NCBI GenBank assembly: GCA_015501055.1
Contig: JADNYV010000091.1
Span: forward strand, 1 to 64,000
From: Mucidula mucida
Lineage: Eukaryota > Basidiomycota > Agaricomycetes > Agaricales > Physalacriaceae
Length of the DNA stretch: 64,000 bases
Direction of reading: 5' to 3'
Shown here: positions 9,154-44,872 of the stretch, piece after piece
Numbering within the stretch: the stretch's first letter is position 1
How the letters are laid out: each line of letters starts with the position of its first letter
Position numbers and translations under genes: made by a program
The notes under the pieces: generated by a model
Database searches by the model: none
What the model was told of the DNA's origin: nothing
Seen by the model: only the letters and a program-made list of their open reading frames with translations

Positions 9154-12100
9154 AGGTAGGCGACACTCAGAGGTAACGTACCCTGAGGACCCTGAGTGTG
9201 ACAGCCTAATCGGGCCTCATCAGCCTGGGATCAGTAGGAAATCGTCGCTTTTACCTTTATCAAGGCACCTCTGGCCTCTAAATTTTCCAAGAGATTTTGT
9301 GTAAATAGTTGACAATGATGACCCGCTATTTTGATTGGTAGTAAAATTAGTCCCGAATGAGCAGTTCTTGGTTTTAACGACGCGACAACCGTGTCAGCGC
9401 GGTTGTTGCGCATTGCACTCGATTCCACCATGCCTCCTTCCAAGGGATGGAAGAAAAACAAGCTGCTCAACTTCCAAGGAGCCTCTAAAGCTGTTGGGAC
9501 CGGATTAAAGCGCGTGATTCAGACGTTTTCCCCGCGTAAGAAGCGCAGGGTTGACACACCAAAGGATGCAGAAGCAGACAAGGAAAACCAGGTGTGTATC
9601 ATCATGATTGGCCTGACACTTGACTGATTTCAGTGATAGATGCCAGAGACACCCCATTTGGACACGACGTTACCCAATGACAGTCAGTTTTTTGCGACTC
9701 CATCTGATGTCCGGGGGTTCCACTTGATTCCTTCATTCGCGTGTTCTCTCTTTGGAACGTTTTGTGCAGCTCCCTCCTAGGCACCCACTATTCATTCAGA
9801 ATCAATCTCCCTTTGCTTTCCCGTGCAAGAACTGGTTGCACCCGGCATCACTGCTTCAAACCCACTTCCTCCTATTCTTTCTGACACTCCACCTCGTTTC
9901 CCTATCACTCGGCTTAAGGAAGTTGATGACACAGGCTCGGTCCATTGATTTGGCTCTCTCAATGACAGTACTGCCTTCCTGGTGGAGACGGCTAGTGTTT
10001 TCGACGCGTCTGACACATCATCTATTGCGTCTGGTGCATCTGACCCGGAGGATGATCATCAGGACAATTTGCGCTTCCCACCACCTCCACCGGCATCACC
10101 GCAGGATACATCAGAACCTGGAACAAGCCCTGTGAATGACCGCACATCTCCATCTCCAGTCCCCCCTTCATTTAACGCATCTGAATTTCTGCCTAATGGC
10201 TCCGGGAGGCTTTGCGAGGCACCGTCTATTGAGACAGCACTCAGCGCATTGAAGGACCTGCGCAAGAAGCTGTGTCCGCATTGCCAGAAGGGCCCTGGTC
10301 ATGTCAACGTCTACTTTGATCCCTTCACTCATTATCAAATGCTCGGTATGCAAGCCATGCTCTCTGATTACACGAGTTCCCTCAGTGCAACATATGGACA
10401 TTGGGCTGCATCATCACTTCAGGCGACTGTTTTCCTTGGCCGAGGTGTCTACTGTGCCCGAGTACTTTGTCGTCTTGTCCGTGCTTTCATCGCAGATCGG
10501 ACATTACTGCCCATCAATCCATACGGGTCATTTAAAGAGTCTATGCTCGCCAATCAGGATCTTTTGCAGGACATCAATTTGCATCTGCAGGAGTTGGAAA
10601 AGGATATCACGGCCCTAAAGGTAGTCGAGTATTTGGCCCAACCGGAGGTGAAGGACAAGTATGGCATCACGAAGACCATATCCCTTCGTACGGCTCAGCA
10701 ATACCTTAACGCTCTGGGATACCGGTGGAAGGAAGCGGCTAAGGGGCAGTATGTTGATGGCCACGAGCGCGCAGATGTGGTCTTTCAGCGGGACCATGTC
10801 TATGTTCCTAAAATGAAGAGCTTCAAGGGGCGTATCCAGGTGTATGGTTGAGACGGACAGCCTTTCAAGGTGGTTGATGGTGTTGAGGTATCTACCGGAA
10901 AGCCTGTCATTATTTGGTTCCATGACAAGTCAATTTTCTATGCTCACAATTGCCGACGGAAATCGTGGTATCACAAAGATGGACCAGCCAAACCGTACAG
11001 GAAGGGAGAAGGTGCATCACTCATGATTGCAGATTTCGTCTCCGCGGAGTTTGGCTGGTTACGCTCTCCTGACGGCACTCGATCCGCGCGCGAGATTCTC
11101 AAGCCGGGCAAGAATTGTGAGGGGTACTTCACCAACGAGGATATTCTCAGACAGGCAAAAAATGCAATGGACATTCTGGACGAGTTTTATCCGGAGTACG
11201 AGCATGTGTTTGTCTACAACAATGCAACGACACATCGGAAGCGAGCCGACAATGCACTTTCAGCCCGGAAAATGCCTTGAAACACTTCCAAGCCAGATTC
11301 CAACTGGTTGGTAGAGGTCAACAAGCTCGACAACAACGGTAATCAGGTTCATACGACAACTGGGAAATTTGCAAAGAAGCGCATCCGCATGAGTGACACC
11401 ACTCTCTACTTCCCCGACGATCACCCGGATCATCCAAGCATGTTTAAAGGCATGGTACAGATTCTTATTGAGCGTGGCTTTGATTGCAAGCTGCTTACGA
11501 CTCCCATCAAGCAAGGTGGATTACGGGCAGAGTGCAAGAATTTCAAGTGCTTGGGTGGCGAGGCTGCAAAGGATTGTTGTGTACGTCGGATCCTCTTCAA
11601 TCAGCCAGATTTTGCAGGTGTGCAGTCGCTTCTTGAAACGGCATGTGCGGCTCGTGGTGTTACAGTGATTTTTCTCCCGAAGTTTCATTGTGAACTCAAC
11701 CCGATTGAGCAATGCTGGGGGTACGTGAAACGGTTATACCGACTCAACAACGAGTCATCAAAGGAAGAGGACCTGCAACGGAACACTTTGAAGGCACTGG
11801 AGGAGATACCTCTGGTTACAATCCGCCGGTTTGTTTCCATCTTCGAGTGAAACTCTAGTAATTAACTTCTAAACAGGTTCTTCAACCGCGTGTTTCGCTT
11901 TGTGGATGTGTATGAGCGTGGCCTTAATGGTCGTCAAGCTGCCTGGGCTTCTAGAAAGTATAGAGGACATTGGATCCTTCCCGAGAACATCTTAGATGAG
12001 CTTGAGCAGGCTGGAATGGTTTAATGACATATAGATTAGAAGTATTTTAAGGACTACTCGCTCAGTTCTCAAAAGCACACTTATCCCTCTCGTATCCAAG

Positions 12101-12253
12101 ACTTAGACTACTATTAGAACAATCTCTTGGAGTTAGATAGTCACCAAAATGCGAGCAACACATATCGTTCATGTCGATTGGCCCAATTTGGTGCGACCAT
12201 CACACTGTGACTCAGGGTCCTCAGGGTACGTTACCTCTGAGTGTCGCCTACCT
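9154..12253 (+). mobile_element. Tc1/mariner-superfamily element with 44-bp perfect inverted repeats
   Basis: Bases 9154-9197 and 12210-12253 are perfect inverted repeats of 44 bp starting AGGTAGGCGACACTCAGAGG. The element is flanked by TA at 9152-9153 and TA at 12254-12255, the target duplication of the IS630/Tc1/mariner superfamily. It lies within hAT coding sequence and is 3.1 kb long. It carries one decayed DDE transposase gene. The perfect ends contrast with the broken gene, suggesting recent movement by a transposase supplied from another copy. Confidence 0.92.
9430..12024 (+). pseudogene. DDE transposase of the 3.1-kb element, inactivated
   Basis: Starts MPPSKGWKKNK at 9430; exon 1 is basic and ends at a GTGTGT donor near 9592. 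The core reads CPHCQKG, a helix-turn-helix-like LRTAQQYLNALGY, WFHDKSIFYA (first catalytic Asp), VFVYNNATTH and FLPKFHCELNPIEQCWG (catalytic Glu). The second catalytic Asp (FDNATTH in the mushroom relatives I remember) is Asn. In-frame TGA codons occur near 9946, at 10849-10851 and at 11278-11280. A 44-nt intron near 11829-11872 joins to FFNRVFRF and the conserved GLNGRQAAWASRKYRGH tail, ending at TAA 12022-12024. Widespread family in Agaricomycetes; this copy cannot encode an active enzyme. Confidence 0.8.
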
Positions 12254-12771
12254 TAATGTCGGCGCAATGGCCAATTTGGGAACCAAAGGCGACGCACTGG
12301 AGGACTATTTGACCACACCCGTTATGACCACGTGCACCAACCCACTGTCGTATTGGGCGTCGCAGCTTGATGTTCTGGATAGCAAGGGCAAGATTACCAT
12401 CACTGCAGGTGGGGCTCTGGTGCAGATGGCTCTTGATTATCTTAGCGTGCCCCGTAAGTTGAGATTTTTGTTTGCTGTGCACTCCTACTCATTTGGGGTT
12501 ATTGCAGCCACCTCGATCGACATCGAACATCTGTTCTCGCATGCGGGACTTGTTGTCACAAAGCATTGTTTCAACCTTTCCGATGTGTCGACACAGGCAC
12601 AAGTACTTCTACAGAGTTGGTGGAGGGAAGACGGGCTGGTCGACGAGGCATTTCTGGCAAAGCACTTCAACGCAAAGCATTGCCGTGGTAAGAATGCCAA
12701 CAACAATGATTAGAGTACTTCTTCGTCTACTTATGTTCTTCTATGCAATCCGCTGACATGTCTACCTACAA

Positions 12772-15153
12772 TTGGAGGAACTGATGACTATCAAGCGCAA
12801 GGATTTTGTGAGTCTCCAGAAATTCATTGATCGCGCGCAGTACCTGAAGAGGCGCGTTCAAGCCCTTGTCAACGACCTCGGCAATACCGCCGTTATTTAT
12901 ATGGTGCTCAACGGCGTCAAGGAGTATCAGTTCCATACTTTTCTTACCCGTATGATGAAGGACAAGAAGCTGAAGTGGGAAGATCTCATCAGCGAACTAT
13001 CAGATGAAGCCGCGAAGGAAGCTCACGATATGAACCTCCTTAACGTCAAGAATCCGAACAACAATAAGATGATAACGACAACCTCTGACAACCCTAAGTC
13101 AGGGCCTCGTCGCCATCCATATTACGCTCCCTGCAAATGTTGGCACAGTGGTGGCGATAATGCTTGCTGGAAGCTCCATCCAGAGCTTGTTGCTGCCAAG
13201 AAGAAGAAGGAAGAAGAGACCACGACAAGCATTGCAATGACACCGACTGCATCTATTGCCTCTGTAAAGTTTCAGAGCGGCCTTTCCGGAATGATGGTTC
13301 ACAACAAATTGTTTGCAGCTATCAGAGAGCTTCCATCATACCAGTTGAGCAACGACAGTATGATCATGGACTCCGGAGCTTCTGACCATACGTTCAACAA
13401 CAAGAAGTGGTTTACCCACCTGGTTCCATTGCCCAAACCGCTTATATTTGCATCTTCCAACGGGGGTGACATTGCCACTACTCATTCAGGAATGGCGATC
13501 TTTAACGTGAAGCTTAGCAATGGAGAACTTGTCGAGTTCGAGTGCCACGGAGTGTACTCACCAGATTCGCCTTGTAACCTCCTCTCTACAGGCAATTTCA
13601 AGAACGATGGAGCCATTGTTGACAACTTTAACAATCGTCTCGTTACCAAGGATAGAAAGATAGTTCTGGCGGAACTCTGCTGGGCAAACAATGTTCAAGC
13701 TGTTCGTAATGTGCTCCCGCCACCAATCAAGAACGTCAACCTCGCAACAATTTCCTACAATACGATGCACAAGCGACTCCTTCACACAAATAAGGAGACC
13801 GTTCTTAAGATTTGCGAGCAAGCAGGAATCCAGATTAGTCGCGCAGAGGCTAGACAATACCATTGCGAGGCTTGCAAGCTTGGAAAAGCGACTAACTTCA
13901 TTCTGAAGTCCTCCGAATCGATGTATCATCATCCTCTTCAAATGGTACACGTTGATCTCATCGAACATATGGTTGGCCACGCAGGATTGAAATATACTCT
14001 TCATTTCATCGACTGCTGGAGTGGTCACCACTGGATTAAGTTCATGAAGACTAAGGAGGACGTTTATACTAAGCTCCTTGAGTGGGTTAATCAGATTGAG
14101 GTTCAAACCGGCCTTAAAGTCCAAGAGATCGGACTTGATGGCGGTCCCGAGTTTGGCCAGGGAACGAAGCTATTCACGTGCTTAAAATTACGCGAGTGGT
14201 GCAAGTCTGGGGGAAAGATCCTATCGCCAACTACACCTCATACCCCATGGTATAATGCAAAGAGCAAATGCGCTGGAGGAAGTGTAACCTCCTACGCCAG
14301 AACCGCCTTAATCGCAGCGAGCTTGTCACCATCACTCTGGCCGTTCGCCGAAGAGACCGCTGCTACAGTTCTTAACCTCCTTCCTAGCAAGTCAACGCCA
14401 GAGAGACTATTGCCACAACAGACCTGGCTAAAGGGCTTGAAACTTCCCGAGGGCAATAAACCACCCTATATCAAGCACCTCTGTACATTTGGATGTACCG
14501 CCTACGTCTACGTCAAGCTAGCTTACCAACCCAAGAAGGATAAGATGGTACCTAAGGCTAAGAAAGGCAAGTTACTTGGCTACAACAATCTTCACGGGCG
14601 TATCTACTGGGTTTATCTCCCTGCGGAAGGTAAGGTGGTTCGTGCTGGCGCTGTGAAGTTTCACGAAGAAAATAAGGAGATTCAGCCGATTGAGATCGAC
14701 GAATTGATCAACCACGAAGCTATCCTTGAGGACCGTCATCCCGAAGACGAAGACTACAAGATGGGGTTTAGCTATCCACTTGATGAAGGCAAGGAACAGG
14801 AACCCATTGAGAAACAAGATGTCATCGTGAAGGAGCTTATTCAGAAGGTCCCAATCGGAAAGGCTCAATCTGGGATTGTTACGCCGGAGCCAAGCCCTTC
14901 ACCACCTTCTGCTGGAGTAGTCGATTCCCCCTTTGATGATATCATAACACCTATACAAGGTGAAGTTCAATCTGACTACAATACTCCTAACAATTCTGAG
15001 CATCTGGATGATGATTCCGATGCTCCAGACGATGAATCCGAAGACGCTGACGATGATTCGAAGATCAAAGAACATCGGCCTGATGATTCCGATTCCGATG
15101 ACGATGCTGCTGTAACGACGCAGGACCTGATCGGCCTTTGGTTCCTTACTTAG
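12772..15153 (+). pseudogene. Copia-1 gag C-terminus, protease and integrase
   Basis: Continues the Copia-1 frame from LEELMTIKRK. A degenerate zinc knuckle region (CKCWHSGGDNACWKLHP) precedes the aspartic protease motif MDSGASDHTF at about codon 200. The integrase has its HHCC zinc site (MHKRLLHTN ... HCEACKLGK), then VHVDLIEH (first Asp) and GLDGGPEF (second Asp). Where relatives have the catalytic Glu (NAKAERAGG) this copy reads NAKSKCAGG, so the Glu is Lys and the integrase should be dead. An acidic Ser/Asp-rich linker leads to the TAG at 15151-15153. Confidence 0.85.
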
Positions 15154-15441
15154 TCATCTTTCCCGCTTTATCTCTATACGGTATACCGCTGTCATGCACG
15201 GTCTTCCTCTTCGTCTTCTTACAATCCTACGGGATTCCTACTCTCTCCAATATGTCCTCTTTATTCCTTCAACTCTTCCGTAGGCTTCCGCATCGATACA
15301 GCGGAGATCCGTACCATAACTATATATACAGATACATAAGACTAGCTACAGTAGGTTACTTGGAATCAACAACATACCCCAGTCATTCGAGTCCCCTCGC
15401 GTCTAAACAACGCACCTATCTTATCCCCGTGTGACGGATTC
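15154..15441 (+). other. Unexplained 288-bp segment between Copia-1 ORFs
   Basis: The copia frame before and after is the same (288 bp is divisible by three), but the segment itself has several stops, is Ser/Thr/Tyr-rich in translation and shows no copia similarity I can see. It may be a small insertion or a decayed linker. No inverted repeats or target duplication were found. Confidence 0.35.
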
Positions 15442-17139
15442 GTGATCCCTCGTCACGATATCCTCACAGCTGCCGCCGTTGACGCTCAACTTCTTGAGCA
15501 ATTGGAAGAGGACGAAGCCCCTATACCTCCTATCGAAGCCTCGGAACTCCGCGAGATTCCTAGAACCGCAGCAAGCGACCGTCAACGCCGCACCAACTCT
15601 GTGAAGAAGCCTGGAGACTACTATAAGGCCCATACAGGCAAGAAGAACCTCCCGAAAGGCTACAATTTGGTCAATGTTCTTGACGCCGTTACGGTCCTCC
15701 CGGAGAAGTCATATACCCAGTATTGCCTCTCATCCCTTAAGGCTACAACTATCGCTACGGCCATGCCCGCCGTTCCCAAGACATACAACCAATCCAAGAA
15801 GCACGTAGACTTCTGTGCGAAGTGGCTACCCGCAATGCAACGCCAACTTGATGCCCTTATCGCCAACAAGACTTGGAAGCTTGTTAACCCTCCTAAGGAC
15901 GCCGATGTGCTTCCTGGCAAGTGGGTCTACGATGAGAAGTATCCTATTGACGCAGAGCCTTCGCCACGAGCTCGTTGGGTTGTCTGTGGCAATTACGAGA
16001 AAGATAACTGGGCGAATCAGGACGTTTACGCCGCAGTTGCTAACTTGACAACGATCAAGGTCTTTCTCTGTATCTCAGCTACGCAGAACCATATTATCTG
16101 GCAATACGACTTCTGTACGGCCTTTCTCAACTCGAAGATACTCAGAGGAACCTTTGTCTACGTTCGTCAACCCCACGGCTTAAGACAGGTCTCTGGCAAG
16201 GTCTGTTTGCTTTTGAAAGCCCTCTACGGTCTACGAAAAGCCGGTATCTACTGGCTTCAGACCCTTGTCCCTGTGATGAAGGAGATTGGCTTCGAGGTCT
16301 TCCGTCCCGACTTTTGCCTCTTTATCAACAAGAAAACCGGTGCCCTAGTCGTTTTGTACGTCGACGATATGCTTGTTTCAGCTTCTACGATGGAAGCTAT
16401 CACGGAAACCCGCGTTGAACTGGAGAAGCGATTCAAACTGAAGGATTTGGGGGAAGCCAAGTCTTTCCTCGGCTTCGATATCAAGCGCGATCGCGAGAAC
16501 TACCGCATCTACCTCTCCCAGGAGCGCTACGTTCGCAATATCCTTGATCAGTACGGCTATACTGATTGCAATGGAGTTGCCAGTCCCTGGCCTACTAGCT
16601 TGGAGCTGCCTAAGGTATGGGATCCAGACAAGGTTACTCAACCAGAGTATATCAAGAAGACTGGAAAGCTCAACTACCTCGCCGTTGGTACTCGCTGCGA
16701 TATCACATATACCGTGAGTCGCCTTTGCGAAGCCAATAACGGTCCCTCTGCAGCCCATTTACAGCTGCTTGCGCACCTATTCCGCTATCTCAAGAAGACT
16801 GTTCGCTTGAGCCTCGCCTTTGGAGGCAAGCTACCCATAGATCGCCTTGGCCTTTGCTGTGACATCAAGGTTACTCTCAGTCAAAGACACGAAGTAGAAG
16901 ATGGAGAACGAACCAGGGCAGCGATTCACCAGTCAAGATACCCACCTGCTCTGTCGATAGCCAGGCGACGAATAAATATCGGAGAGAATGAAGAGAGAAA
17001 GGGAGCCGAGACGACGTCGAAGGAACAGACCAAGCGTGCAATCTGCCAGAGAGCTAAACGACAAAGATTGTCAGCTACTAGCACAAAGGATGGAACGAAA
17101 AGGGTACGAATGTTTGGCAAAATCAAGACGCGCGTCTGA
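15442..17139 (+). pseudogene. Copia-1 reverse transcriptase, truncated before RNase H
   Basis: Reads the copia RT: WLPAMQRQLDALIANKTW, GKWVYDEKY, QYDFCTAFLNS (first Asp), LLLKALYGLRKAG and LYVDDMLVSAS (the YVDD active site, about codon 305), then FLGFDIKRDR and the linker to RNase H. After GGKLPIDRLGL at about 16860 the translation becomes basic low-complexity sequence with no RNase H match, although the frame stays open to 17139. The last 90 codons are therefore not copia but flanking DNA. Confidence 0.85.
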
Positions 17140-17242
17140 ACCAACGAGAAAGGAAAAAAAAAAGGGAAAATTTGAGACGATGAGTAAGGACAGTGGGGGG
17201 AAGGGGGGGAACGACGAGGACGGAGCTTGGATTTGCTTGCGC

Positions 17243-18700
17243 TCAGTCGAGGGAGTAGGTGATGCCGTAGAAATCGGCAGAGGGGTACTTGACAAGGATC
17301 TGCTTGATAACCCACCAGAGCGGCGTAGCGTAGGTGACGTGGTTATGCATGCCTCGAGGCATGCCTGAGTGCAGGATCGCGAGCCCTTTGCCGTCGCCCG
17401 TGAAAATGAGGGAGCCTGAGTCACCGTGGTCCGAGAAGTCGTCGGATTTCTTGCTGTAGTTATAAACGACGACCTCCCTGGACTCGAGTCCGAGGTCGGT
17501 GCAAATGTAGGCGTCCATGCCCGAATAACGACCTAGGGTAAGCTTAGTCGTATTACCGTACTTGCCGACGATATAAAGCGGCTCGCCGTTTTTGTCCAGA
17601 GCGCTACTGATGGGGAGCTGGAGGTTCGCTGGGATTGTCTTGCCATCGCGAACAGAAGCGATGGGCCAAAAGCGGTCCTCGAGCTGACTGGCATCAAAGT
17701 CGCTTCCTGAAGAGTGGGGTGTTAGTAAGCGAGATTGGAATGAAGGGCGGGGAGGGGAAATGGAACGGAACGCACCGAGATCGACGATGTTGCTCTCGAA
17801 GTTCTCGAGCTTCTCCTTATCCACCGAAATTGTTGCAATATCGCGAGTATAATGACGGTCGTCGACTCTGACGGAGATCGCAGGAGCCCAGTCGACAAGA
17901 CCGAACTTGCGGCCCTCTACATCCTTCCAGTTGGCTTGGACTTCGTCGAAGAGCGTCTGCAGAATAGTGATGTTCTCGTTCTTCTCCTTCAATGCGGTCG
18001 TCTTACGCTGTACGGCCAAGGAGACCTGATCGCCCAAGTCCGCCAACTCACTGTTGAGCTTCACGGCATCGCGTAAATCTTTGTTGATGGCGTCTTCGAT
18101 CTCCCCGACGGCACGAGCAAGACGGCGTTCGCCACACACGATGATATGCTGAGGGTCAGCCTCATTAAACTCGTAATCGGTGGTCGTGTCGACGGAGACG
18201 ACATGCTTGTTGGTCAGCGCCAGGATCCTGTCGCTGGGTTGGCCGTTGCTGTCCTTCACCTCTCGGAAAAGGAGCGTGAGGGTGCCCTGAGCGTCTTCGG
18301 ACAGCCTGGCGATGGGGATGCCTAGACCAGTATTGAAGGGGTGGTTGAGGCCGAAGCTGGGATTGGTGTTGTCTTCGACCTTCATCAGAGGCGGGCCGAC
18401 CAGCCTTTGGACAGAGGCTTCGTACCACTCGACAACGACACCATGGACCGCGGCGTCTGCGAGGATGCGGAGGATGTCTGGGGTGGCGTCGCGAACATCC
18501 CCGGCGTTGGTGGTATTGGGCCGCACGGCGATCCACACAACAACGGGGCTAACCGTTTCGTCCTCCTCGCCGTCCTCGAGCGTCAAAAAGCGAGCCGTCT
18601 TGAGCGCGGAGTATTTGATACGGTGGTCCTTCATGGACGCGATGATTTTGGGAGCGACGTTATCCCAGACCTCGTTCAGCGGGCAGCAACCCCTGTGCAT
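17243..18700 (-). CDS. Trypsin-like serine-protease-fold protein (Agaricomycete family)
   Basis: A GDSGSLIFTG motif carries the nucleophile Ser; LALTNKHVV fits the catalytic His and RDIATI a possible Asp, so all three positions look present. The N-terminal half (PLNEVWDNVAPKI ... GLGIPIARL) matches a large Agaricomycete family I remember, whose members have this domain before the protease-like half. One in-frame 69-nt intron (17707-17775, GTGCGT donor, CTTACTAAC branch site, CAG acceptor) is removed to give NIVDLGSDFDASQL. The first in-frame ATG is at 18700 and a TAA lies upstream at about 18768, so the N-terminus may be shortened or start in an unseen exon. The stop is TGA at 17243. No signal peptide is visible; substrate unknown. 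It is one of few unbroken genes in the repeat-rich part. Confidence 0.7.
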   Translation of the reverse strand: MHRGCCPLNEVWDNVAPKIIASMKDHRIKYSALKTARFLTLEDGEEDETVSPVVVWIAVRPNTTNAGDVRDATPDILRILADAAVHGVVVEWYEASVQRLVGPPLMKVEDNTNPSFGLNHPFNTGLGIPIARLSEDAQGTLTLLFREVKDSNGQPSDRILALTNKHVVSVDTTTDYEFNEADPQHIIVCGERRLARAVGEIEDAINKDLRDAVKLNSELADLGDQVSLAVQRKTTALKEKNENITILQTLFDEVQANWKDVEGRKFGLVDWAPAISVRVDDRHYTRDIATISVDKEKLENFESNIVDLGAFRSISPPRPSFQSRLLTPHSSGSDFDASQLEDRFWPIASVRDGKTIPANLQLPISSALDKNGEPLYIVGKYGNTTKLTLGRYSGMDAYICTDLGLESREVVVYNYSKKSDDFSDHGDSGSLIFTGDGKGLAILHSGMPRGMHNHVTYATPLWWVIKQILVKYPSADFYGITYSLD

Positions 18701-18912
18701 CCCCTCCCCCCGCCAACCACACGTGATGGGAAACCGGCAAATAACCAAGTCCGAGAGCCGAGATTCTTAGGGAGAACTTGTGTCGCGGCGTCTAGTACGA
18801 GGAAATACATCCGGATAGTGTAGTTAAAGATACAAAATGGAAAATACAAGATCTATAGTAGTAGTATACGTGGATGTAAGGTACAAACAGGCTATGTCGG
18901 AGATCACAGGTC

Positions 18913-21811
18913 TCACTCGGGTCTCACTCGGAAAAACATGGCATTTGATGTTGATGCTTCCCACGTCGTTGGCGACGCCTCCGTTCGTGAGCGAAAACGA
19001 CGTTCACGGCTCTGACAGCTCTCCACCAAGCCAAACAGTCGACTCCCTTCCCGTTCCACACTGTCTAACATTCTCTGGTCACCAAACTGTTTTTGATATT
19101 CCAACATATCTGCGAATTCCCGAAGCTGAGCGACGCGCAATGTTATCTGCTCCCGGAACGTCGTTTGGCTAGCCACGAACACCCTTACATCGTCTTCTTC
19201 TTCATCGGAGTGCTCGCCGTGGGTACCGCGCGTTCGGGTTGATATGTTTGGAATATCGATGGAGGGCGTCAATGATTGATCAAGAGGGGCAAGAGATGGA
19301 TGCGACCAAAATGGCGGGACTCGATTGCGTCGAACCTCGAGGAAGAAGACTGGAGGTACTGGGTGAACACCTTGAACAAGGTGCTTGCACAGTAGAAACC
19401 GGCTACCATGCAGTAAGGGGCATGTGCATACCCATTTCTTCGTATCGGGCTGATATTTTTCATTCAGAGGAAGTGTCCACGGCGCCGTCTCGCAATGTCT
19501 CCATTCCTTCTTGAATGCCTTTCGCCAGGATGCCAACTCTCGGTACCGTCCAATTGGGTTCATAAGCACGTCAAGTCTTCGATAATAATTCGGCGCCAGC
19601 TTGGTGACAAGGACCCAAATGAGGAGGTCGACTCGTGGGAGGGCGAAGTGGTGTAAAAAGTCCTCCTTGATGCGTCGCCAACTATGCAGAACAAGTGAGT
19701 TTTACATTTTTCAAATTCTCCAGAGAAACTGACTGGCTCTCCAAGATCATCGTCGTCTTCAATATTGCTATCATTTCAGGACACGTCGACCGCGCCCATA
19801 GCTCCCAGCGACCCGGTCGGTACCAATTCTCCCACAAGTACGCCCAGACCTCTCGAAGATCTCTTTTCACGCAATACTCGTACATCATCCGCACTGCCCA
19901 TTCATATATGGCAGCGGTCGAAGGGTGTGCCTCGCCGGGAATAAAAGGGTGAGCGCAGTAGTGGTGTTCCATCATGCCTGTAATTTCTGAGCGGTATTCT
20001 TTAAGACAGAAAGGTCGACTTTGCTTCTCGATCTTCGGCGGCCGGGTCTTCGAGTTCGCATTTGTCGGAAACGGCGTGTCCTGAACAGGTAGATTTTCCT
20101 TGTCCCTTGTTCCAGAGCCAGACGGGATGAGTGGCAGCTTAATCTTCAGTGCCCATGGGCGGGACAGGTCCATGTCTGACTCGCGTGGCATCGCGTCCGG
20201 GTCTGGTCCGCCTTCTCGTTCAGAAGCATCGGGGTCTCCGGGAGGTATGAAAGCAGGATCAATGAATGAAAAGCACTCATGTGCGGCGCGGGCTCGGTAA
20301 GGTGTCGTCGATAGTTTGTCATTCGAGAGTCGTTGGCTGACGGCGCGGTTTAGGTGCCACCAACAAATGAGAATCTTTGCGAGCGTCCAGACTCGCTTGG
20401 CCATGCCTATCTCCACCATATCTTTATCGAGATGTACGAACTTCGGAATAATGCCATATCGCTCCCGAAGTATGGTAGCCCAAGCTTTGAGTGCTGATGT
20501 TCGCTTGCCTTGTTCGACGGTGGTTGCAGTCGTAAGCAAACAATACGCGAGGGGAAAGCCAGCATTGTCGTATTCACCCATAATGCTGTACAGCTCCAGG
20601 TGACCCTTATTCGTGTTAACTAGATTTCCATTCAAGACTAACCCTATATTTGAAGAATATCGGGAACTCACATGTTGCATCCATCCCAATTTCAACCACC
20701 TTTCCTCTTAGTGCATGGAGAATCCGCTTCATCCCAAAACACAGTTGCTTGACTCCCTCCGGAGGCTGTATCTCGTGGAAATAATCGACGTCGTCTCCGA
20801 GCTCCTGCAACAGAATCCGACCTGATTCCATCTGATCTCCCGCTCTCTTCCACATGGTTTCGCTCATAGCTGACCACGCCCGATGTACTTGTGCTGCCGA
20901 GACGTGAGAAAACTTTTTGCGAATGCCTGCAGCCAGGACACTGGGTGTCGAGAAGTCCATATGGGTGCGTATCATGTCGAGCGCACCTTCCGGCATAGAA
21001 ACGTCGTAATATGGGACGTGGCGGACCTCATGGACCAGCCGCAGGGAGATAAGCATACTGCCGTCACCATCCAACCGGCAAGTGATGTTCAATCTGCTGT
21101 GGCAGGGAAATCTTTGCATTCCTACATTCTGCCGTCGCTTCGCATCCTCTCGCGTGCTTAGATGGGGCTTTTGCTTCCGAGACGCGTCCTGGCAGCACCA
21201 GAAGCGCGTCTTGTGGTGGTGATCTGACGACTTGTGATCCCGTACACTACATTAACCGTAAGCAGCTTTCGAGTTGGATCAAGCTTAGACTTACAAGAAG
21301 CGGTAGCTGGTGACTTTCCAGATTTCATTTGCAAGCATCCTGACGCGTTCTTTCATGAATACCATTGGATCCTCGGCCATAGTGTAAGTGCCATAGAAAT
21401 GAATCTTTGTTTTACTCTTGAATAGGTCTCGTATTTCACAGATCATATCCTCTGCATCGCCGTATGTCTCAGCTGCCACCTGGAAAAGCTTAGCACGGCC
21501 AACCGTATTGTATTTGCACTTCAACTCACATTGTAAGTATCCTCACCATCATCCGAGTCACTTCCCTCTCCGCCGGCAAGGTTTGTTGGTCTAGTAATGT
21601 GTACAGTGGTCCCCGGTTGTGGCTCTGCATGCGCGCTAGGTCCTGGTCGTGGTCCCTCATTGTCGTTTATGTCGCGTTTGCGCTTTTTGCACCGTCGGTT
21701 GTTTTCCTGGCAGACGGCACACTGCCTCCAGCCCCAGTTGACAGGAAGTATTTTGTTGCATTTTTTTCGAGAGCACCTTTGAATAGATATGTGCTGTGGC
21801 TGATTCTCCAT
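18913..21811 (-). CDS. Mutator-like (MULE) transposase with SWIM zinc finger, apparently intact
   Basis: Starts at ATG 21811 with a Cys-rich head (CSRKKCNK ... CAVCQENNRRCKKRKRD). Four short introns restore one frame: 50 nt (GTGAGTTG donor) ending near 21480, 64 nt near 21235-21300, 52 nt near 20622-20673, joining DAT to FNTNKGHLELY, and 54 nt near 19684-19737, joining ILES to HWRRIKEDFLHHF. The MULE domain reads IGMDATFN (first Asp), GEYDNAGFPLAYCLL and HLDKDMVEIGMA (second Asp), then WWHLNRAV. A SWIM finger CxC...CxH reads WVCTCPLLHGSRFLLCKHL. The stop is at 18913. I found no nonsense codon or frameshift, so it may still encode an active transposase, or a domesticated one. Terminal inverted repeats were not identified. 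Confidence 0.8.
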
Positions 21812-24881: not shown

Positions 24882-25320
24882 TCTTTCTACCACCTACCAC
24901 ACATCCCTGATCGTCAATCAGCACTTCGCTGTTTGATCATTGCACATTTCCCTATTCCCTTTCCCTGTTTACAGATCAACGGAATCCTAATTCCAGCACA
25001 CATCTGCATACATGTGTATTGGTCCCAGTAGCGCCGGCTAACAGTTAGAGATAACTGCCTCGGGTGCTGGAAGTAGCCGCTCTCACGAGAACAAACTTTT
25101 GGCAGTTGCACTTCAGTGGGCGCTGTTTACGGGTCAACCCCCGTTCCCAGGAAAACTTCGGCTTATCTCACACCAGAGGGATGTTGGCTGGGCAATTGCA
25201 AACTTGTGACGAGCTCTTGGGCTCCGTAGATACGTAGTCAGTAGTCGGTAAAATAGCGTAGACAGTTACGATACCTATCTACTTTACTTACCTTACAATA
25301 CACATCATCATTCCCTACCC

Positions 25321-25585
25321 TGTCGTGGTGAAGAGCAACACGGAGATTTCGGAGGAACGGAGATAGCGGAGATATCGACGCGACGAGATGAAAGGAACAT
25401 GCGCGTGTTGGGCTTTCCTCAGTACAGCTACGACGTACTGAGGTAAGCCACTCGCTGCGAATCACATTGGACCTAGGCTGACTATACATTGTAGAATACA
25501 TTGATACTTACACCCTGCCTAGGTATAGTACAGCTACGACGTACTGAGAATACATTGATACTTACACCCTGCCTAGTTCCTAACA
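25321..25585 (+). repeat. 5' LTR of Copia-2 with duplicated, intron-like module
   Basis: Begins TGTCGTGG, ends CCTAACA. It contains module A (25421-25442), an intron-like 52-nt segment (25443-25494), module B (25495-25522), a GTAT joint (25523-25526), a second A (25527-25548) and a second B (25549-25576). The two A+B copies are identical over 50 nt except that the intron-like segment is missing from the second. Module A of the first copy sits in a hairpin (CCTCAGTAC ... GTACTGAGG). Confidence 0.95.
25443..25494 (+). other. Intron-like 52-nt segment in the Copia-2 LTR
   Basis: Begins GTAAGC after an AG (a CTGAG|GTAAG donor), contains GGCTGAC 12-18 nt before its end as a branch-site candidate, and ends TTGTAG. 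Its length is normal for a basidiomycete spliceosomal intron. Its exact removal gives the sequence of the second module copy 32 nt downstream. The same arrangement is present in the 3' LTR at 30352-30403. Splicing itself is inferred, not shown. Confidence 0.65.
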
Positions 25586-25598
25586 GGTTATGGGCTTA
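25586..25598 (+). other. Copia-type half-tRNA primer-binding site
   Basis: GGTTATGGGCTTA directly follows the 5' LTR. It matches the complement of the anticodon region of initiator methionine tRNA (GGTTATGGGCCCA) at 11 of 13 positions. The Drosophila copia element uses this internal half-tRNA site rather than the tRNA 3' end. Copia-3 has GGTTATGGGCT at the same place. Confidence 0.75.
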
Positions 25599-25722: not shown

Positions 25723-28700
25723 ATGCCACTCGAGGCTATCAAAGCTAAAACGATAACGGGTCTAGAAGCCCTCGACCTCAACAAGAAGAACTACGTCCGA
25801 TGGAACGAAAGCGCCCTCGACGCGTTCCTCATCGCCGGCAGCAAAGAGTATGTCACCGGCGACGTATCGAAGCCCGACGCGTCCGATGCAGCCAATCTCG
25901 CGATCTGGACCAAGAATGACAGTATTGCGCAAGCGATGATTCGCATGAACATTGCTGCCTCGGAGAGAGACTACCTGCGCGACAACTGCAAGTGCACAAC
26001 CGCGAACGAGATCTGGAAGGAGCTCGAAAAACGCCACAGACAGAAATCGTCAACTCAGCCCTCCCTCTTAGACGACGCCCTATCCGCCAACATCTACCGC
26101 GACGAAGACATGGTCACCACCGCGAATAGAGTCCGTGACATCTGCAAGCAGATCTTCGAGATCGGCACTCTTGATGCGGAAACGCTGGCGCGCGTCGTCC
26201 TACTTCGCGCCCTGTGTTCGGATCTCAAACACGTCCGCGAGAAGCACGAAGACAACGACAAGTCCACTGCCGCCGATATCGTCGCGTCACTCGAGAAGGA
26301 GACCCTGCGTCTGAAGGACGAGCTAAAGAAGGAGGCGGAAGAGGAGAAAGCGAATGCGGCGCTGACACAGAAGTCGCACAGCAAAGGCAAGGGCCACACT
26401 CATGGGCAGAACGGTCTATGTGAGACATGTGGAGGTCGTCACAGAACGGATGAATGCTGGGGAAGAGGCGGGGCCATGGAAGGCAAACGTGATGAGGTGT
26501 TGAAGAAGAGGGCTGCGCGACGCGAGAAGAACTCCCCCTCCCCCTCTCCTTCCTCCTCTGCCAACACAACTACGTCAACTCCCAAACCGCCAGATCCAAA
26601 CAAGCCACGGTTCGCGTTCAAAGACTCCGCCGGTAAAACCGTCTACTTTACCATGGTCGAGGAGGAGCAAACAGCCGCCACCGCGTTTGTGACACCAAAC
26701 TCCGAGCTCGAGGAGATATACGCCGCCCAACACGCACGTCGTGGCTCTGAGTCGTCCGAGTTTTCTATGCTCGCCGACGTCGCCAGAGTGTCCATTGATT
26801 GGAAGCACCATCTGAAACCGGGCTACACCGTCGACGATGCTAGTACACCCGTCGCCCTTCAGACGAATCAGTACACCGTACTCAATATTGCAGACTGTGG
26901 ACCTTTTGCCGGGGACTCAGGAGCGACGGTACACGTCTCGCCAGTACGCGAAGATTTTCACACTCTACATGCCATCCCACCACAGAAAATCTGGGGCGTC
27001 GGAGGAAACTACATCGAGGCAAGGGGCATCGGAGACATCCACATCCGCCAGGCGAAAGGCGCCACTCTCATCCTCCGCGATGTCTTATACGTTCCTCAGG
27101 CGACAATCCGACTCATGTCCATTGGCAAGATCTGCGACAACGGCTATACCGCCGACTTCGACGATGCTGGATTCTGTATTAGGAGCAAGACCAGCAAAGC
27201 AGTCGTCGCGACGGGAACTCGCCACAGCAAGAAGCTGTACACTCTAAACGGCGCAATACTTCCCCGTGTCAAGCACACTGTCACCAAGACAGCACCCACT
27301 TCCAATCCCATTGCCGCCGCAGCCAATGCCAACACAAACACGGCTAACCTTCGCACCTGGCATGGACGCCTCGGCCATATCGGCATCTCCACAATCAAGA
27401 AGATGGCCCAACGCGCTATGGCAAAAGGTATGCCAGTCGACTTCTCCGAAAACCCACCCTCATGCGAATCTTGCATTCTTGGAAAGCAGACACGCACGCC
27501 CGTGGCCAAAACAAGGGAGAATGAGCGGTCAAAGCGAAAGCTGGGAGTCGTATGTGTTGATCTTACGGGGCCGGAGGCGGTAGAATCCAAGCGACACAAT
27601 CGTTATTCAATGGAACTAGTCGATGAATATACAGACATGACGTGGTGCATACCGTTGCGAACGAAAGACCAGGCGTTCTCTGAACTTCAAAGATGGGAGA
27701 AGGAGAGGAAGCTCGAGTGCAATGAAGAGGTCGGCATATACAGAACCGACGGAGGCGAACTAAAAAGCGACCAAATGCGCGACTGGTTAGCAAAAACCGG
27801 CACAAAACTGCAAGTCACCGCACCATACACTTCCGCGCACAACGGTATTGCTGAACGCCGTCACCGCACAGTATTCGAACTGGGAAGAGCAATGATGGCA
27901 GAGTGCAAAGCACCGGCATATCTATGGGACTATTTTGTGGAGACCGCGGGTTATGTGGCGCAGAGACGTCCGACGACGTACCAGAACAAAATGACTCCAT
28001 ATGAAGCATGGTACGGCGTCAAACCAAACCTGGCGCATCTCCGCGAGATAGGGTGCAAGGCATTCGTTCTGATCCAGAACAAGCACAACCCCAAGATCTA
28101 TGACCGTTCACTCGAGTGTCAGCTAATTGGGTATTCGTCCAACTCAAAAGCTTACATCTGCTACCATCGACAGACACATCGTGTAGTCACGTCATACCAC
28201 GTCGAGTTTATCGAGTCGCACCAGAAACACGCAACGCCACTACAGCCCGGACGCATAGTCAATGCCGATGATGATGATGATGACGAGGACAAGATGCCCG
28301 TACTGATTGAAGAGAGTGATGATGAAGACGAAGATGATGACAGCAGCGATGGCGAGGAAGACGAAGACAATCTAGGAGAAGACGGCGGCAATGTTTCCGA
28401 TCCCGATCCAGATGTCCGAATACCCCGCAGGAGTCAAAGAGAGAAGCAAGCAGGACTCGAAGAACGTATCAGGAAGGCAGTCAGGGAGTCTACTGACGCG
28501 GGGAACAGGCTCCGCGCTGATCGAGAAGCAAGAAAACGCGCACGTCAAGAACACATCCCAAACGAAGACGATGTTCACGCACTGATTGACGGGATCGTCC
28601 TCGCCACGTTAACTGAAGATGAAAATATCAATCTCGAATTCCCAGAAGAGCCCAAGTCAACGAAAGAAGCGCTGGAGAGCGACCAATCTGCAGAGTGGCA

Positions 28701-30222
28701 TGCCGCGATTCAGGAGGAGCTCAAATCCATCCAAGACATGGGTGTCTATGATCTTGTTCCACGATCCACTGTCCCAAAAGGCCGCAAAGTGATGCGGGGC
28801 AAGTTTGTCTTCAGAACAAAACGCGACGCACTTGGCAATGTGTCAAGGTACAAGGCGAGGTATGTTCTGCGTGGGTTCGAAATGATATATGGGAAGGACT
28901 ACACAAAGACAACCTCACCAACAGCTCGTGCAGAGTCCCTACGCGTCCTTTTCCACCTAGCCGGTGCTCTCGATTACGAACTCACACAACTCGATGTGAA
29001 GACGGCGTACCTATACGGCGACCTCGACGAAACCACCTGGATGGAACAACCAAAGGGTTTCGAGGAAGCTGGAAAGGAGGACTGGGTATGGCAACTGAAG
29101 AAGGGATTGTATGGCATGAAGCAAGGCGGGCGAATTTGGAACAAGACAATGGACGCAACAATGAAGGAACTAGGATTCACTCAGCTTAGCGTCGAGCACT
29201 GCATCTACTATCGGAAACGCGAGTCCGGTACCATATTTGCAGCTGTCCATGTCGACGACTTCACCGTAGCCGCAAGCAGTGCGGAGGAGGAAGTCCGATT
29301 TGAAGAGGAGCTACAGTCAAAATGGCAGATATCCAGAGCCGACGCGAACTTCGTTATTGGGTGGGCCGTCCGTCGCGACAGAGAGAAGAAGAAGGTCTAT
29401 CTCTCACAGAAGGCGCTTATCGATCGCATCATCAGAGAGTTCAACTGCGCCGACGCGAACCCAACCAAAACACCTCTTCCACCTAATACACGACTCACCA
29501 AACGAGACCTCCCACAATCTGAGGAGGAGGGACGTCAAGCCGCAAAGCAGCCATACCGCCAGCTTGTGGGTGTCCTCATGTACCTCGCAATATCCACTCG
29601 TCCCGATATCATGCATGCTGTAAGCACGCTCAGTCGTTTCAACAGCGGACACGGAGAAACGCACTGGAAAGCGGCGCTGCACGTTGTCAAGTACCTAAAA
29701 GGTACACGAGACTTCGAGCTGGAACTGGGTGGAGAAAACGTAGCGCGACTCACCGGATTTACCGACTCCGATTACGCTAACTGCCCGGATACGCGACGAT
29801 CAGTCTCCGGCTACTGCTTCTCCCTGGGATCGGGCCTTGTTTCATGGATGTCGAAAAAGCAAGCTACAACGGCGACGTCGTCCACAGAAGCAGAATATAT
29901 GGCAGCGGCGCCGGCAACAAAAGAGGCAGTCTGGATCCGAAACCTTCTACAAGGCCTGAACCAGGAACAGAAGAATCCAACTGTCATCTTCATCGATAAC
30001 CGCGGCGCCAGAATCCTCACCGAAGACCCGTCGTTCCACCAAAGAGTCAAGCACATCGAAGTCCAACATCACTACAGCCGAGAGTGCAGCGAACGAGGCA
30101 TTGTCCACTTCGTTGATGTACCCACCAAGGACAATGTTGCGGATGCTTTCACAAAGGCGCTGCCAACCACGGTGTTCGAAAAGATGAGAGGTTGGATGGG
30201 AATTGTACCCTCTCCGCGTTGA
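25723..30222 (+). CDS. Copia-2 Gag-Pol polyprotein, intact
   Basis: 1499 codons without interruption, start ATG at 25723 (ACCATG context). Gag (UBN2-like, NYVRWNESALDAFLIAG) is followed by a CCHC-like knuckle CETCGGRHRTDEC at about 233, an aspartic protease AGDSGATVHVSP at about 395, integrase zinc site (TWHGRLGHIG ... CESCILGKQT, about 545-590), integrase core with VCVDLTGP, YRTDGGEL and AHNGIAERR (D, D, E), an acidic linker (about 850-910), RT with TQLDVKTAYLYGDL and AAVHVDDFTVAAS (HVDD in place of the usual YVDD), and RNase H (FTDSDYANCPDTRRSVSGY ... TSSTEAEYMAA). It makes virus-like particle proteins, protease, integrase and RT for copy-and-paste movement. Probably transcribed from the 5' LTR. 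No defects seen. Confidence 0.97.
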   Translation: MPLEAIKAKTITGLEALDLNKKNYVRWNESALDAFLIAGSKEYVTGDVSKPDASDAANLAIWTKNDSIAQAMIRMNIAASERDYLRDNCKCTTANEIWKELEKRHRQKSSTQPSLLDDALSANIYRDEDMVTTANRVRDICKQIFEIGTLDAETLARVVLLRALCSDLKHVREKHEDNDKSTAADIVASLEKETLRLKDELKKEAEEEKANAALTQKSHSKGKGHTHGQNGLCETCGGRHRTDECWGRGGAMEGKRDEVLKKRAARREKNSPSPSPSSSANTTTSTPKPPDPNKPRFAFKDSAGKTVYFTMVEEEQTAATAFVTPNSELEEIYAAQHARRGSESSEFSMLADVARVSIDWKHHLKPGYTVDDASTPVALQTNQYTVLNIADCGPFAGDSGATVHVSPVREDFHTLHAIPPQKIWGVGGNYIEARGIGDIHIRQAKGATLILRDVLYVPQATIRLMSIGKICDNGYTADFDDAGFCIRSKTSKAVVATGTRHSKKLYTLNGAILPRVKHTVTKTAPTSNPIAAAANANTNTANLRTWHGRLGHIGISTIKKMAQRAMAKGMPVDFSENPPSCESCILGKQTRTPVAKTRENERSKRKLGVVCVDLTGPEAVESKRHNRYSMELVDEYTDMTWCIPLRTKDQAFSELQRWEKERKLECNEEVGIYRTDGGELKSDQMRDWLAKTGTKLQVTAPYTSAHNGIAERRHRTVFELGRAMMAECKAPAYLWDYFVETAGYVAQRRPTTYQNKMTPYEAWYGVKPNLAHLREIGCKAFVLIQNKHNPKIYDRSLECQLIGYSSNSKAYICYHRQTHRVVTSYHVEFIESHQKHATPLQPGRIVNADDDDDDEDKMPVLIEESDDEDEDDDSSDGEEDEDNLGEDGGNVSDPDPDVRIPRRSQREKQAGLEERIRKAVRESTDAGNRLRADREARKRARQEHIPNEDDVHALIDGIVLATLTEDENINLEFPEEPKSTKEALESDQSAEWHAAIQEELKSIQDMGVYDLVPRSTVPKGRKVMRGKFVFRTKRDALGNVSRYKARYVLRGFEMIYGKDYTKTTSPTARAESLRVLFHLAGALDYELTQLDVKTAYLYGDLDETTWMEQPKGFEEAGKEDWVWQLKKGLYGMKQGGRIWNKTMDATMKELGFTQLSVEHCIYYRKRESGTIFAAVHVDDFTVAASSAEEEVRFEEELQSKWQISRADANFVIGWAVRRDREKKKVYLSQKALIDRIIREFNCADANPTKTPLPPNTRLTKRDLPQSEEEGRQAAKQPYRQLVGVLMYLAISTRPDIMHAVSTLSRFNSGHGETHWKAALHVVKYLKGTRDFELELGGENVARLTGFTDSDYANCPDTRRSVSGYCFSLGSGLVSWMSKKQATTATSSTEAEYMAAAPATKEAVWIRNLLQGLNQEQKNPTVIFIDNRGARILTEDPSFHQRVKHIEVQHHYSRECSERGIVHFVDVPTKDNVADAFTKALPTTVFEKMRGWMGIVPSPR

Positions 30223-30229: not shown

Positions 30230-30494
30230 TGTCGTGGTGAAGAGCAACACGGAGATTTCGGAGGAACGGAGATAGCGGAGATATCGACGCGACGAGATGA
30301 AAGGAACATGCACGTGTTGGGCTTTCCTCAGTACAGCTACGACGTACTGAGGTAAGCCACTCGCTGCGAATCACATTGGACCTAGGCTGACTATACATTG
30401 TAGAATACATTGATACTTACACCCTGCCTAGGTATAGTACAGCTACGACGTACTGAGAATACATTGATACTTACACCCTGCCTAGTTCCTAACA
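30230..30494 (+). repeat. 3' LTR of Copia-2
   Basis: 265 bp, one difference from the 5' LTR (a G-to-A in a CpG). It repeats the A, 52-nt intron-like, B, GTAT, A, B structure at 30330-30485. Confidence 0.97.
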
Positions 30495-30646
30495 TACCCT
30501 ACCAAGTCCTGGATTCTATTTCAGATCTAGGCAACTCCTCCTTATTCATCCAAACCTCTATTCCCTCACCCGTTTCATCCAAATCCGCATCACCCATATC
30601 CCCACTATTACCCTTTCACTCTCCAATCTCATCACCCCGATTCACC

Positions 30647-39768: not shown

Positions 39769-40029
39769 TGTTGGAATCGACGCAATACGGAGATTACAGA
39801 TAGATCAGGATTGGCAGGGTCGAGCGCGTGGCGCGCCGTAGGCGCGCAATCTCTTTCATCTGGCTTTCCTCAGTACCGCTACGATACAGTGTACTGAGGT
39901 AAGCCACTCATTAGTATGACGGGACGATTAACTTATATATCACCTAGACGTACTTATACACGGTCTAGGTATAGTACCACTACGATACAGTGTACTGAGA
40001 CGTACTTATACACGGTCTAGTTTCCAACA
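39769..40029 (+). repeat. 5' LTR of Copia-3 with duplicated, intron-like module
   Basis: Begins TGTTGGAATC and ends TTTCCAACA. Module A at 39872-39898, intron-like 49 nt at 39899-39947 (GTAAGCCACTC ... TTAAC ... CCTAG), B at 39948-39968, GTAT at 39969-39972, A again at 39973-39999 (one difference), B again at 40000-40020 (identical). CCTCAGTAC ... GTACTGAGG forms a 9-bp stem around the donor site. It is followed by the half-tRNA site GGTTATGGGCT at 40030. Confidence 0.95.
39899..39947 (+). other. Intron-like 49-nt segment in the Copia-3 LTR
   Basis: GTAAGC donor after AG, GATTAAC branch-site candidate 15-20 nt before the end, and CCTAG acceptor. Absent from the second module copy 26 nt downstream. 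Only the first 11 nt (GTAAGCCACTC) are conserved with the Copia-2 segment, as expected for introns that keep splice signals while the interior diverges. The 3' LTR copy is at 44742-44790. Confidence 0.6.
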
Positions 40030-40158
40030 GGTTATGGGCTATTTTCTTTGACGGAACTCGACCGCTAGCGCATGACGAGCAACCTCGACATTGAAAACCT
40101 CGCATCTTCTTTCACGAGACTACACATAAACACATCCACCCCCCACACATCCCACATC

Positions 40159-44604: not shown

Positions 44605-44611
44605 GGAGGAG

Positions 44612-44872
44612 TGTTGGAATCAACGCAATACGGAGATTACGGATAGATCAGGATTGGCAGGGTCGAGCGCGTGGCGCGCCGTAGGCGCGCAATCTCTTTC
44701 ATCTGGCTTTCCTCAGTACCGCTACGATACAGTGTACTGAGGTAAGCCACTCATTAGTATGACGGGACGATTAACTTATATATCACCTAGACGTACTTAT
44801 ACACGGTCTAGGTATAGTACCACTACGATACAGTGTACTGAGACGTACTTATACACGGTCTAGTTTCCAACA
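44612..44872 (+). repeat. 3' LTR of Copia-3
   Basis: 261 bp, two differences from the 5' LTR (GAATCA for GAATCG, TTACGG for TTACAG). Module copies lie at 44715-44863. Confidence 0.97.

Follow-up and report, generated by a model that had tools for sequence, protein, structure and literature searches.

How can a retrotransposon retain, within one LTR, both an intron-like segment and a copy of the flanking sequence from which exactly that segment is missing? The question is raised by an element in a 64,000-nucleotide stretch of Mucidula mucida DNA (contig JADNYV010000091.1, positions 1 to 64,000; hereafter the window). The element is a young Copia retrotransposon, as seen from its near-identical LTRs (both 265 nt, with one difference between them), the 5-bp target-site duplication (TSD) TACCC bordering it on both sides and its open frame, and we refer to its family as F1. 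The encoded domains follow the order Retrotran_gag_2, Pol_BBD, gag_pre-integrs, SH3_retrovirus and RVT_2, all above their cut-offs, the rve core match lies below its cut-off, and a purine-rich tract precedes the 3' LTR. The LTR has the order U3 - A1 - i1 - B1 - L - A2 - B2 - tail. The positions and letters given for the A and B modules in the initial annotation are correct: the two 50-nt copies are identical, and a 52-nt GTAAG...TAG gap is present in the first copy only. The features of the element are as follows.

25316-25320 (left) and 30495-30499 (right), no strand: TSD TACCC, from flank comparison
25321-25585, + strand: 5' LTR of Copia family F1, from the LTR pair; GGTTATGGGC starts at 25586
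25321-25420, + strand: U3, 100 nt, its 3' limit being the putative cap site
25411-25449, + strand: predicted donor hairpin, GGCTTTCCTCAGTAC / GTACTGAGGTAAGCC, loop 25426-25434; U3 supplies most of the 5' arm, and the i1 donor lies within the 3' arm
25421-25442, + strand: A1, 22 nt, putative first leader exon with the putative cap at 25421
25443-25494, + strand: i1, 52 nt, intron-like, putatively spliced; donor GAG/GTAAGC, branch-like GGCTGAC at 25476-25482, acceptor TTGTAG
25495-25522, + strand: B1, 28 nt, putative second exon, from repeat comparison
25523-25526, + strand: linker L, GTAT, its last base being the hypervariable position
25527-25548, + strand: A2, 5' part of the intron-free copy, from repeat comparison
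25549-25576, + strand: B2, 3' part of the intron-free copy, from repeat comparison
25523-25576, + strand: i2 (L + A2 + B2), candidate second intron; TAG/GTATAG, branch-like TACTTAC, acceptor GCCTAG
25577-25585, + strand: tail TTCCTAACA, putative U5, from the LTR layout
25586-25595, + strand: putative primer-binding site GGTTATGGGC, adjoining the 5' LTR
25723-30222, + strand: gag-pol ORF, 1499 aa (gag, integrase, RVT_2), from profile matches
30230-30494, + strand: 3' LTR of F1, with A1 30330-30351, i1 30352-30403, B1 30404-30431, L 30432-30435, A2 30436-30457 and B2 30458-30485

Directly 3' of the F1 5' LTR lies GGTTATGGG, and the putative primer-binding site may be linked to an initiator tRNA-Met half primer. 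Genome-wide, ACAGGTTATGGG was counted 127 times versus 4 times for the reversed pattern; the ACAGGTTATGGG site is common to several Copia clades, some without the duplicated-module layout. The window also holds a second, older Copia element of family F3 (39769-44872; TSD AGCCT), which has the same LTR layout and stop codons in its RT.

39769-40029, + strand: F3 5' LTR, with i1 at 39899-39947
44612-44872, + strand: F3 3' LTR, with i1 at 44742-44790

Elsewhere in the window, a third Copia-like frame pair at 12772-17136 encodes integrase-type domains and RVT_2; no LTR pair emerged around these frames when 10000-20000 was searched for direct repeats of at least 60 nt. An ORF on the - strand (17243-18748) is related to agaric proteins and has a weak Peptidase_S64 match below cut-off. 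Rfam, at gathering thresholds, gave no match within the window.

A genome search with 200 LTR bases returned matches in tiers of approximately 100, 88 and 70% identity, and a 300-aa RT piece used as query gave 131 genomic matches, from which 20 regions were taken for study. The layout was found in nine Copia families (F1, F1b, F3, F4, F5, F6, F7, F8 and F9), the RTs of which are 53-100% identical to that of F1. In every one of the nine reference LTRs, a GT...AG gap of 49-53 nt separates A from B in the first copy, and a linker of 4-16 nt leads to the second, in which A and B are joined; the letters of A+B differ by 12-54% between families, those of F5-F9 being 46-58% identical to those of F1, F1b, F3 and F4. 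A coincidental GT...AG fit should vary in position among related LTRs; such variation was absent, the A/B junction being constant in 59 complete LTRs of the nine families. The layout was present in none of three LTR stretches from the distant clades C238, C163 and C24 (RT 40, 38 and 33% identical to F1); as C238 and C163 seem to represent a single family, this distant sample is too small to place the origin of the layout.

The survey covers 68 LTRs. It omits L045, which coincides in position with L018, a partial LTR where L035 is cut, L032 (C660), whose LTRs fall beyond the slice, the C91 element's 5' LTR, and weak non-LTR blast matches of F8. The initial annotation had asked whether the segment is always present in copy 1 and absent from copy 2. 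This holds for the 60 complete LTRs; the other eight are deviant or disrupted: three read A-B-tail (both LTRs of C711 and the 3' LTR of L026), two A-i1-B-tail (C360 3' and L031 5'), one A-i1-B-L-A-i1-B-L-A-B with i1 in the first two of three copies (C139 3'), one is without 11 nt of B1 (L044) and one is disrupted (L041, in C919). Five of the 30 two-LTR elements carry a layout deviation in one or both LTRs. A copy 2 at the LTR end never contains i1, and the C139 triple likewise ends in an intron-free copy, and none of the 68 LTRs has kept the duplication while losing i1 alone. Intact 5-bp TSDs were seen in all 27 elements with both ends found. Among individual insertions, L013 (C711, family F1) has a single A-B in both LTRs, with no i1 and no duplication, between intact AAGAA duplications; L049/L050 (C139, family F5) combines the three-copy 3' LTR with a normal 5' LTR; L026, L031 and L010 are single insertions with 5-bp TSDs whose own two LTRs are unequal in layout; and L020 (C275) is an F1 copy with about 0.6 kb of internal loss and LTRs identical to the family. 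One foreign sequence, ending ...GATTCATAACA, truncates both the 5' LTR of L040 and the L041 LTR; it recurs on the other side of L041 and is possibly a further mobile element.

In all nine reference LTRs, i1 runs from a GTRAG donor to a terminal YAG, with a branch-like YTNAY at 10-16 nt from the acceptor, and the letters outside GT..AG and the branch-like motif turn over between families. Based on these signals, i1 is very probably spliced. The proposal of the initial annotation that the segment is an intron-like part of the R/U5 region, with copy 2 equal to what splicing of copy 1 would yield, is supported at the sequence level. The same reference LTRs have B1 ending in AG, a linker starting GTAY and B2 ending in AG, so that L-A2-B2 (52-71 nt) could form a further intron, i2, with a branch motif within B. 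A branch-like motif stands 12-19 nt from the i2 acceptor in seven of the nine families (missing in F5 and F9) and the i2 donor looks weak; judging from these signals, the balance tips modestly towards i2 being spliced. Removal of both i1 and i2 would leave a leader of A-B-tail. Were i1 the only segment removed, every round would bring one more copy as the cap end landed on copy 2; arrays of intron-free copies were found in none of the 68 LTRs.

The two copies are remarkably alike within each LTR. Of 2821 sites compared in 58 LTRs, 32 (1.1%) distinguish copy 1 from copy 2. The corresponding counts for the 5' and 3' LTRs of an element are 18 of 2420 sites in A+B and 24 of 3487 outside it; the last figure becomes 101 of 3583 with L040, in which other sequence truncates the 5' U3 and 77 of 96 sites outside A+B differ. 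F9, with one LTR only, is absent from the copy-identity, shared-difference and hotspot counts. In seven of the nine family references copy 2 equals spliced copy 1 exactly, and one difference is found in each of F6 and F8. The six exon differences between F1 and F1b are all present in both copies, and 24 of the 25 elements with two complete LTRs show no copy 1/copy 2 difference common to both LTRs. Since divergence between the copies is about that between paired LTRs, copy 2 must be about as young as the LTR pair, and since nine families have different A/B letters with the copies alike in each, copy 2 must have been renewed repeatedly. We consider it likely, from these comparisons, that the renewal draws on spliced copy 1. 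Three F3 insertions (the window element in both its LTRs, C209 and C64) share one A1/A2 difference at a CpG site. This would be simpler under inheritance from copy 2 to copy 2, recurrent CpG mutation being possible; under renewal, a parent with two unequal LTRs is needed.

A second line of evidence comes from the base directly before A2. A variant found in both LTRs of an insertion was most likely already there when the insertion was made, and there are nine such variants: five fall on the base directly before A2 (5 sites) and four on the other 1190 sites, a distribution (5 of 9 on 5 of 1195 sites) with a probability of about 1.6e-10 under a uniform rate. L035, partial at its cut end, is absent from these counts. 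Three of the five sites before A2 are variable, compared with none of the five before A1, where all 21 F7 copies have T. Genome pattern searches raised the total to 35 insertions in five families (two C660 LTRs counted apart), with the base before A2 being T8 G1 in F1, C2 T1 in F1b, T3 C2 G1 in F5, G3 T1 A1 in F6 and T9 A2 G1 in F7; these searches require an exact match elsewhere and are blind to variation at other sites. In F3 the base is T5 C2. Wherever both LTRs were seen, they have the same base. The ten bases before A1 include 8-10 pyrimidines and end in a base that is constant within families, whereas those before A2 include 3-8 and end in the variable one. With one mismatch allowed, the stretch over which copy 2 matches copy 1 starts at AGT in the references of F1, F1b (C360), F3, F6 and F7 and one to five bases before AGT in those of F4, F5, F8 and F9. 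The simplest reading is that strong-stop DNA would end at the A(+1) of AGT and land on copy 2. MMLV-type reverse transcriptases add non-templated bases at the template end, and the cap matters for template switching (PMC6885630). The hotspot is as expected of a non-templated base added at a capped RNA end, which suggests such an end at A1. We regard copy 2 as highly likely to be the landing site.

Pairing is possible between the U3 bases just upstream of A1 and a segment formed by the end of A1 and the i1 donor; in F1 the arms are GGCTTTCCTCAGTAC and GTACTGAGGTAAGCC. Folding prediction gave a hairpin of A with its own flanks in all nine families: the stem has 19 positions with one mismatch in F6 and F7 and 18 pairs without mismatch in F8 (intact 3' LTR as reference), and the hairpins of F4, F5 and F9 carry bulges or mismatches that break columns of a MAFFT alignment. 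Duplexes between U3 and the donor of the same family had a mean of -17.7 kcal/mol versus -12.0 for swapped pairs, and none of 20,000 permutations was as good, a count that overstates independence because the families are related. The own donor was the best of nine in only four families (F1b, F5, F6 and F7), which slightly weakens this part. When U3 was added, the predicted unpaired share of the donor fell clearly in six of nine families (F1 0.49 to 0.15, F1b 0.41 to 0.12, F3 0.48 to 0.15, F6 0.44 to 0.00, F7 0.53 to 0.15 and F8 0.44 to 0.00), slightly in F4 (0.12 to 0.07) and F5 (0.25 to 0.22), and was reversed in F9 (0.13 to 0.22). Upon 200 shuffles of the 25 upstream bases, the numbers at or below the observed value were 11 for F1, 15 for F1b, 11 for F3, 3 for F4, 71 for F5, 0 for F6, 8 for F7, 0 for F8 and 103 for F9. 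The pairing arm lies in U3 and an RNA started at A1 lacks U3, so the donor could be masked only in U3-containing RNA, that is, at the 3' end. Judged by the predicted folds, such masking at the 3' end is more likely than not.

From the layout, the intron signals, the near-identical copies, the U3-donor pairing and the hotspot, which are facts of the sequence, we infer the RNA steps of a mechanism in which splicing would generate R at the 5' end and the intron-free copy would serve as its landing site at the 3' end; we give this reading a probability of about 0.7. The LTR would thereby encode R as a small spliced gene together with a processed copy of that gene. Transcription would start in the 5' LTR, with the first A of A1 as +1, giving a 5' leader without U3 in which the i1 donor is free, and removal of i1 and then of L-A2-B2 would yield A-B-tail. 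At the 3' end U3 is present and would fold onto the i1 donor, i1 would be retained and the RNA would end in or after copy 2. Minus strong-stop DNA would copy tail-B-A up to the cap, often with one non-templated base added, land on A2-B2, the 3'-end copy that lacks the intron, and be extended through L, B1, i1, A1 and U3. The new LTR would then take copy 1 from the old 3' LTR and copy 2 from the spliced 5' leader. Landing on A2-B2 followed by copying through i1 would let i1 survive reverse transcription of spliced RNA, and a strong-stop made from the spliced leader would replace copy 2 by spliced copy 1 in each round. The function suggested in the initial annotation, sorting of genomic from messenger RNA, found no support, the evidence pointing to strong-stop landing and intron retention at the 3' end. 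C711, with A-B-tail twice, has the form that landing on A1 would produce, but repeat slippage would produce the same form. For the deviants confined to one LTR (C360, L026, L031 and C139), slippage between direct repeats is the better explanation; the TSDs of C360, L026 and L031 are intact. Slippage can also keep repeats alike.

This last property enters an alternative in which transcription starts at A2, A2-B2 is an ordinary R, copy 1 and i1 are part of U3, and reverse-transcription slippage keeps the copies alike. Such a start would account for the hotspot before A2 without splicing, and both the A1/A2 difference common to three F3 insertions and the slippage-type products described above (A-B-tail in both LTRs of C711 and L026 3', A-i1-B-tail in C360 3' and L031 5', the triple in C139 3') speak for it. 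However, it supplies no reason for the conserved i1 donor, branch motif and acceptor or for the U3-donor pairing, whose letters are family-specific; the pyrimidine-rich tract with its constant last base precedes A1, not A2, and all six F1/F1b exon changes are in both copies. We regard a start at A2 as unlikely.

Less probable still is an old duplication in which one copy received an inert intron-like insert, the copies being homogenised by slippage or gene conversion and the hairpin being a DNA or RNA control element unrelated to splicing. The frequency of slippage-type variants (5 of 30 two-LTR elements) and the folding of A with its flanks in nine families would agree with it, but the insert has conserved GT..AG and a branch-like motif amid otherwise changing letters, a copy 2 at the LTR end never has i1 and i1 was lost alone in 0 of 68 LTRs, and the hotspot before A2, with none before A1, is left without explanation. 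Plain duplication followed by a single intron insertion, offered as the alternative in the initial annotation, likewise fails to explain copies kept alike in nine families. The fixation it preferred, by one template switch between spliced and unspliced RNA whose two products have been inherited ever since, matches the exact identity of copy 2 to spliced copy 1 in seven of nine references (one difference in F6 and in F8). An event that old would have let the copies diverge, yet families stand 12-54% apart and copies within an LTR 1.1%; fixation in a single element was not borne out by nine families with different letters and copies alike in each, and we judge it very improbable.

As a control, we searched the whole window on both strands for A and B separated by a GT...AG gap of 38-74 nt and followed by the same A-B without a gap. 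This pattern matched exactly four places, the four LTRs of the two elements, and was absent from the reversed window and from three shuffled windows; among the 20 fetched genomic regions it matched LTRs only. An assembly artefact or chance repeat is refuted, its probability being negligible, by recurrence in nine families on many contigs and in both LTRs, by intact TSDs and by the empty controls.

Several known systems share parts of this organization. The elements resemble Ty1/copia (Pseudoviridae) in the LTR pair, the 5-bp TSD, gag, integrase-type domains before RVT_2 and the purine-rich tract before the 3' LTR. The R of standard Ty1/copia elements is one continuous stretch at both RNA ends; in contrast, R here would need splicing at the 5' end, and its processed copy stands in the LTR. 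Foamy viruses have a single R and an acceptor outside the LTR, whereas the i1 donor and acceptor both lie in the LTR here and the product would be stored as a second copy. The major splice donor of foamy viruses is in the LTR, and U3 bases -13 to -1 extend a stem in the 3'-end RNA and alter donor access and poly(A) choice (PMC3694450). The donor logic of the M. mucida LTR resembles this foamy virus donor masked at the 3' LTR. Membership among foamy viruses was rejected, the RT being RVT_2, of copia type and not retrovirus type. Penelope-like elements copy intron-containing sequence with the introns kept, for which an antisense template has been considered and an unspliced sense template also left possible (PMC3846280); their RT is of a different class, and remaking of an intron-free repeat copy does not feature in the passages considered. 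The lariat proposal for Ty1 ties splicing-type RNA chemistry to the minus-strand template switch; its abstract describes a 2'-5' bond in genomic RNA, with no intron in R and no duplicated module (PMC1266399). The LTR1 lentiviral vectors have an altered first strand transfer, and one of them has a leader intron, but they are man-made with first strand transfer removed (PMC5542766). Searching viral contigs gave four pattern matches, none of them a relative, and among the top-ranked titles in searches of the open-access literature we found no described element with an intron-split R and a stored spliced copy.

Taken as a whole, the sequences incline us towards a fungal Copia clade in which splicing would be required for reverse transcription, R would exist only as a 5' splice product, an RNA switch set by the cap site would keep the intron at the 3' end and the spliced sequence would overwrite the intron-free copy in each round. 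Introns should be lost when spliced RNA is reverse-transcribed, and this layout would show a leader intron that is used yet kept. It would constitute a natural DNA record marking cap site, splice junction and the position of first strand transfer, readable without RNA work, and the general question of how two identical LTRs come to behave differently at opposite ends of one transcript would become testable from genomes.
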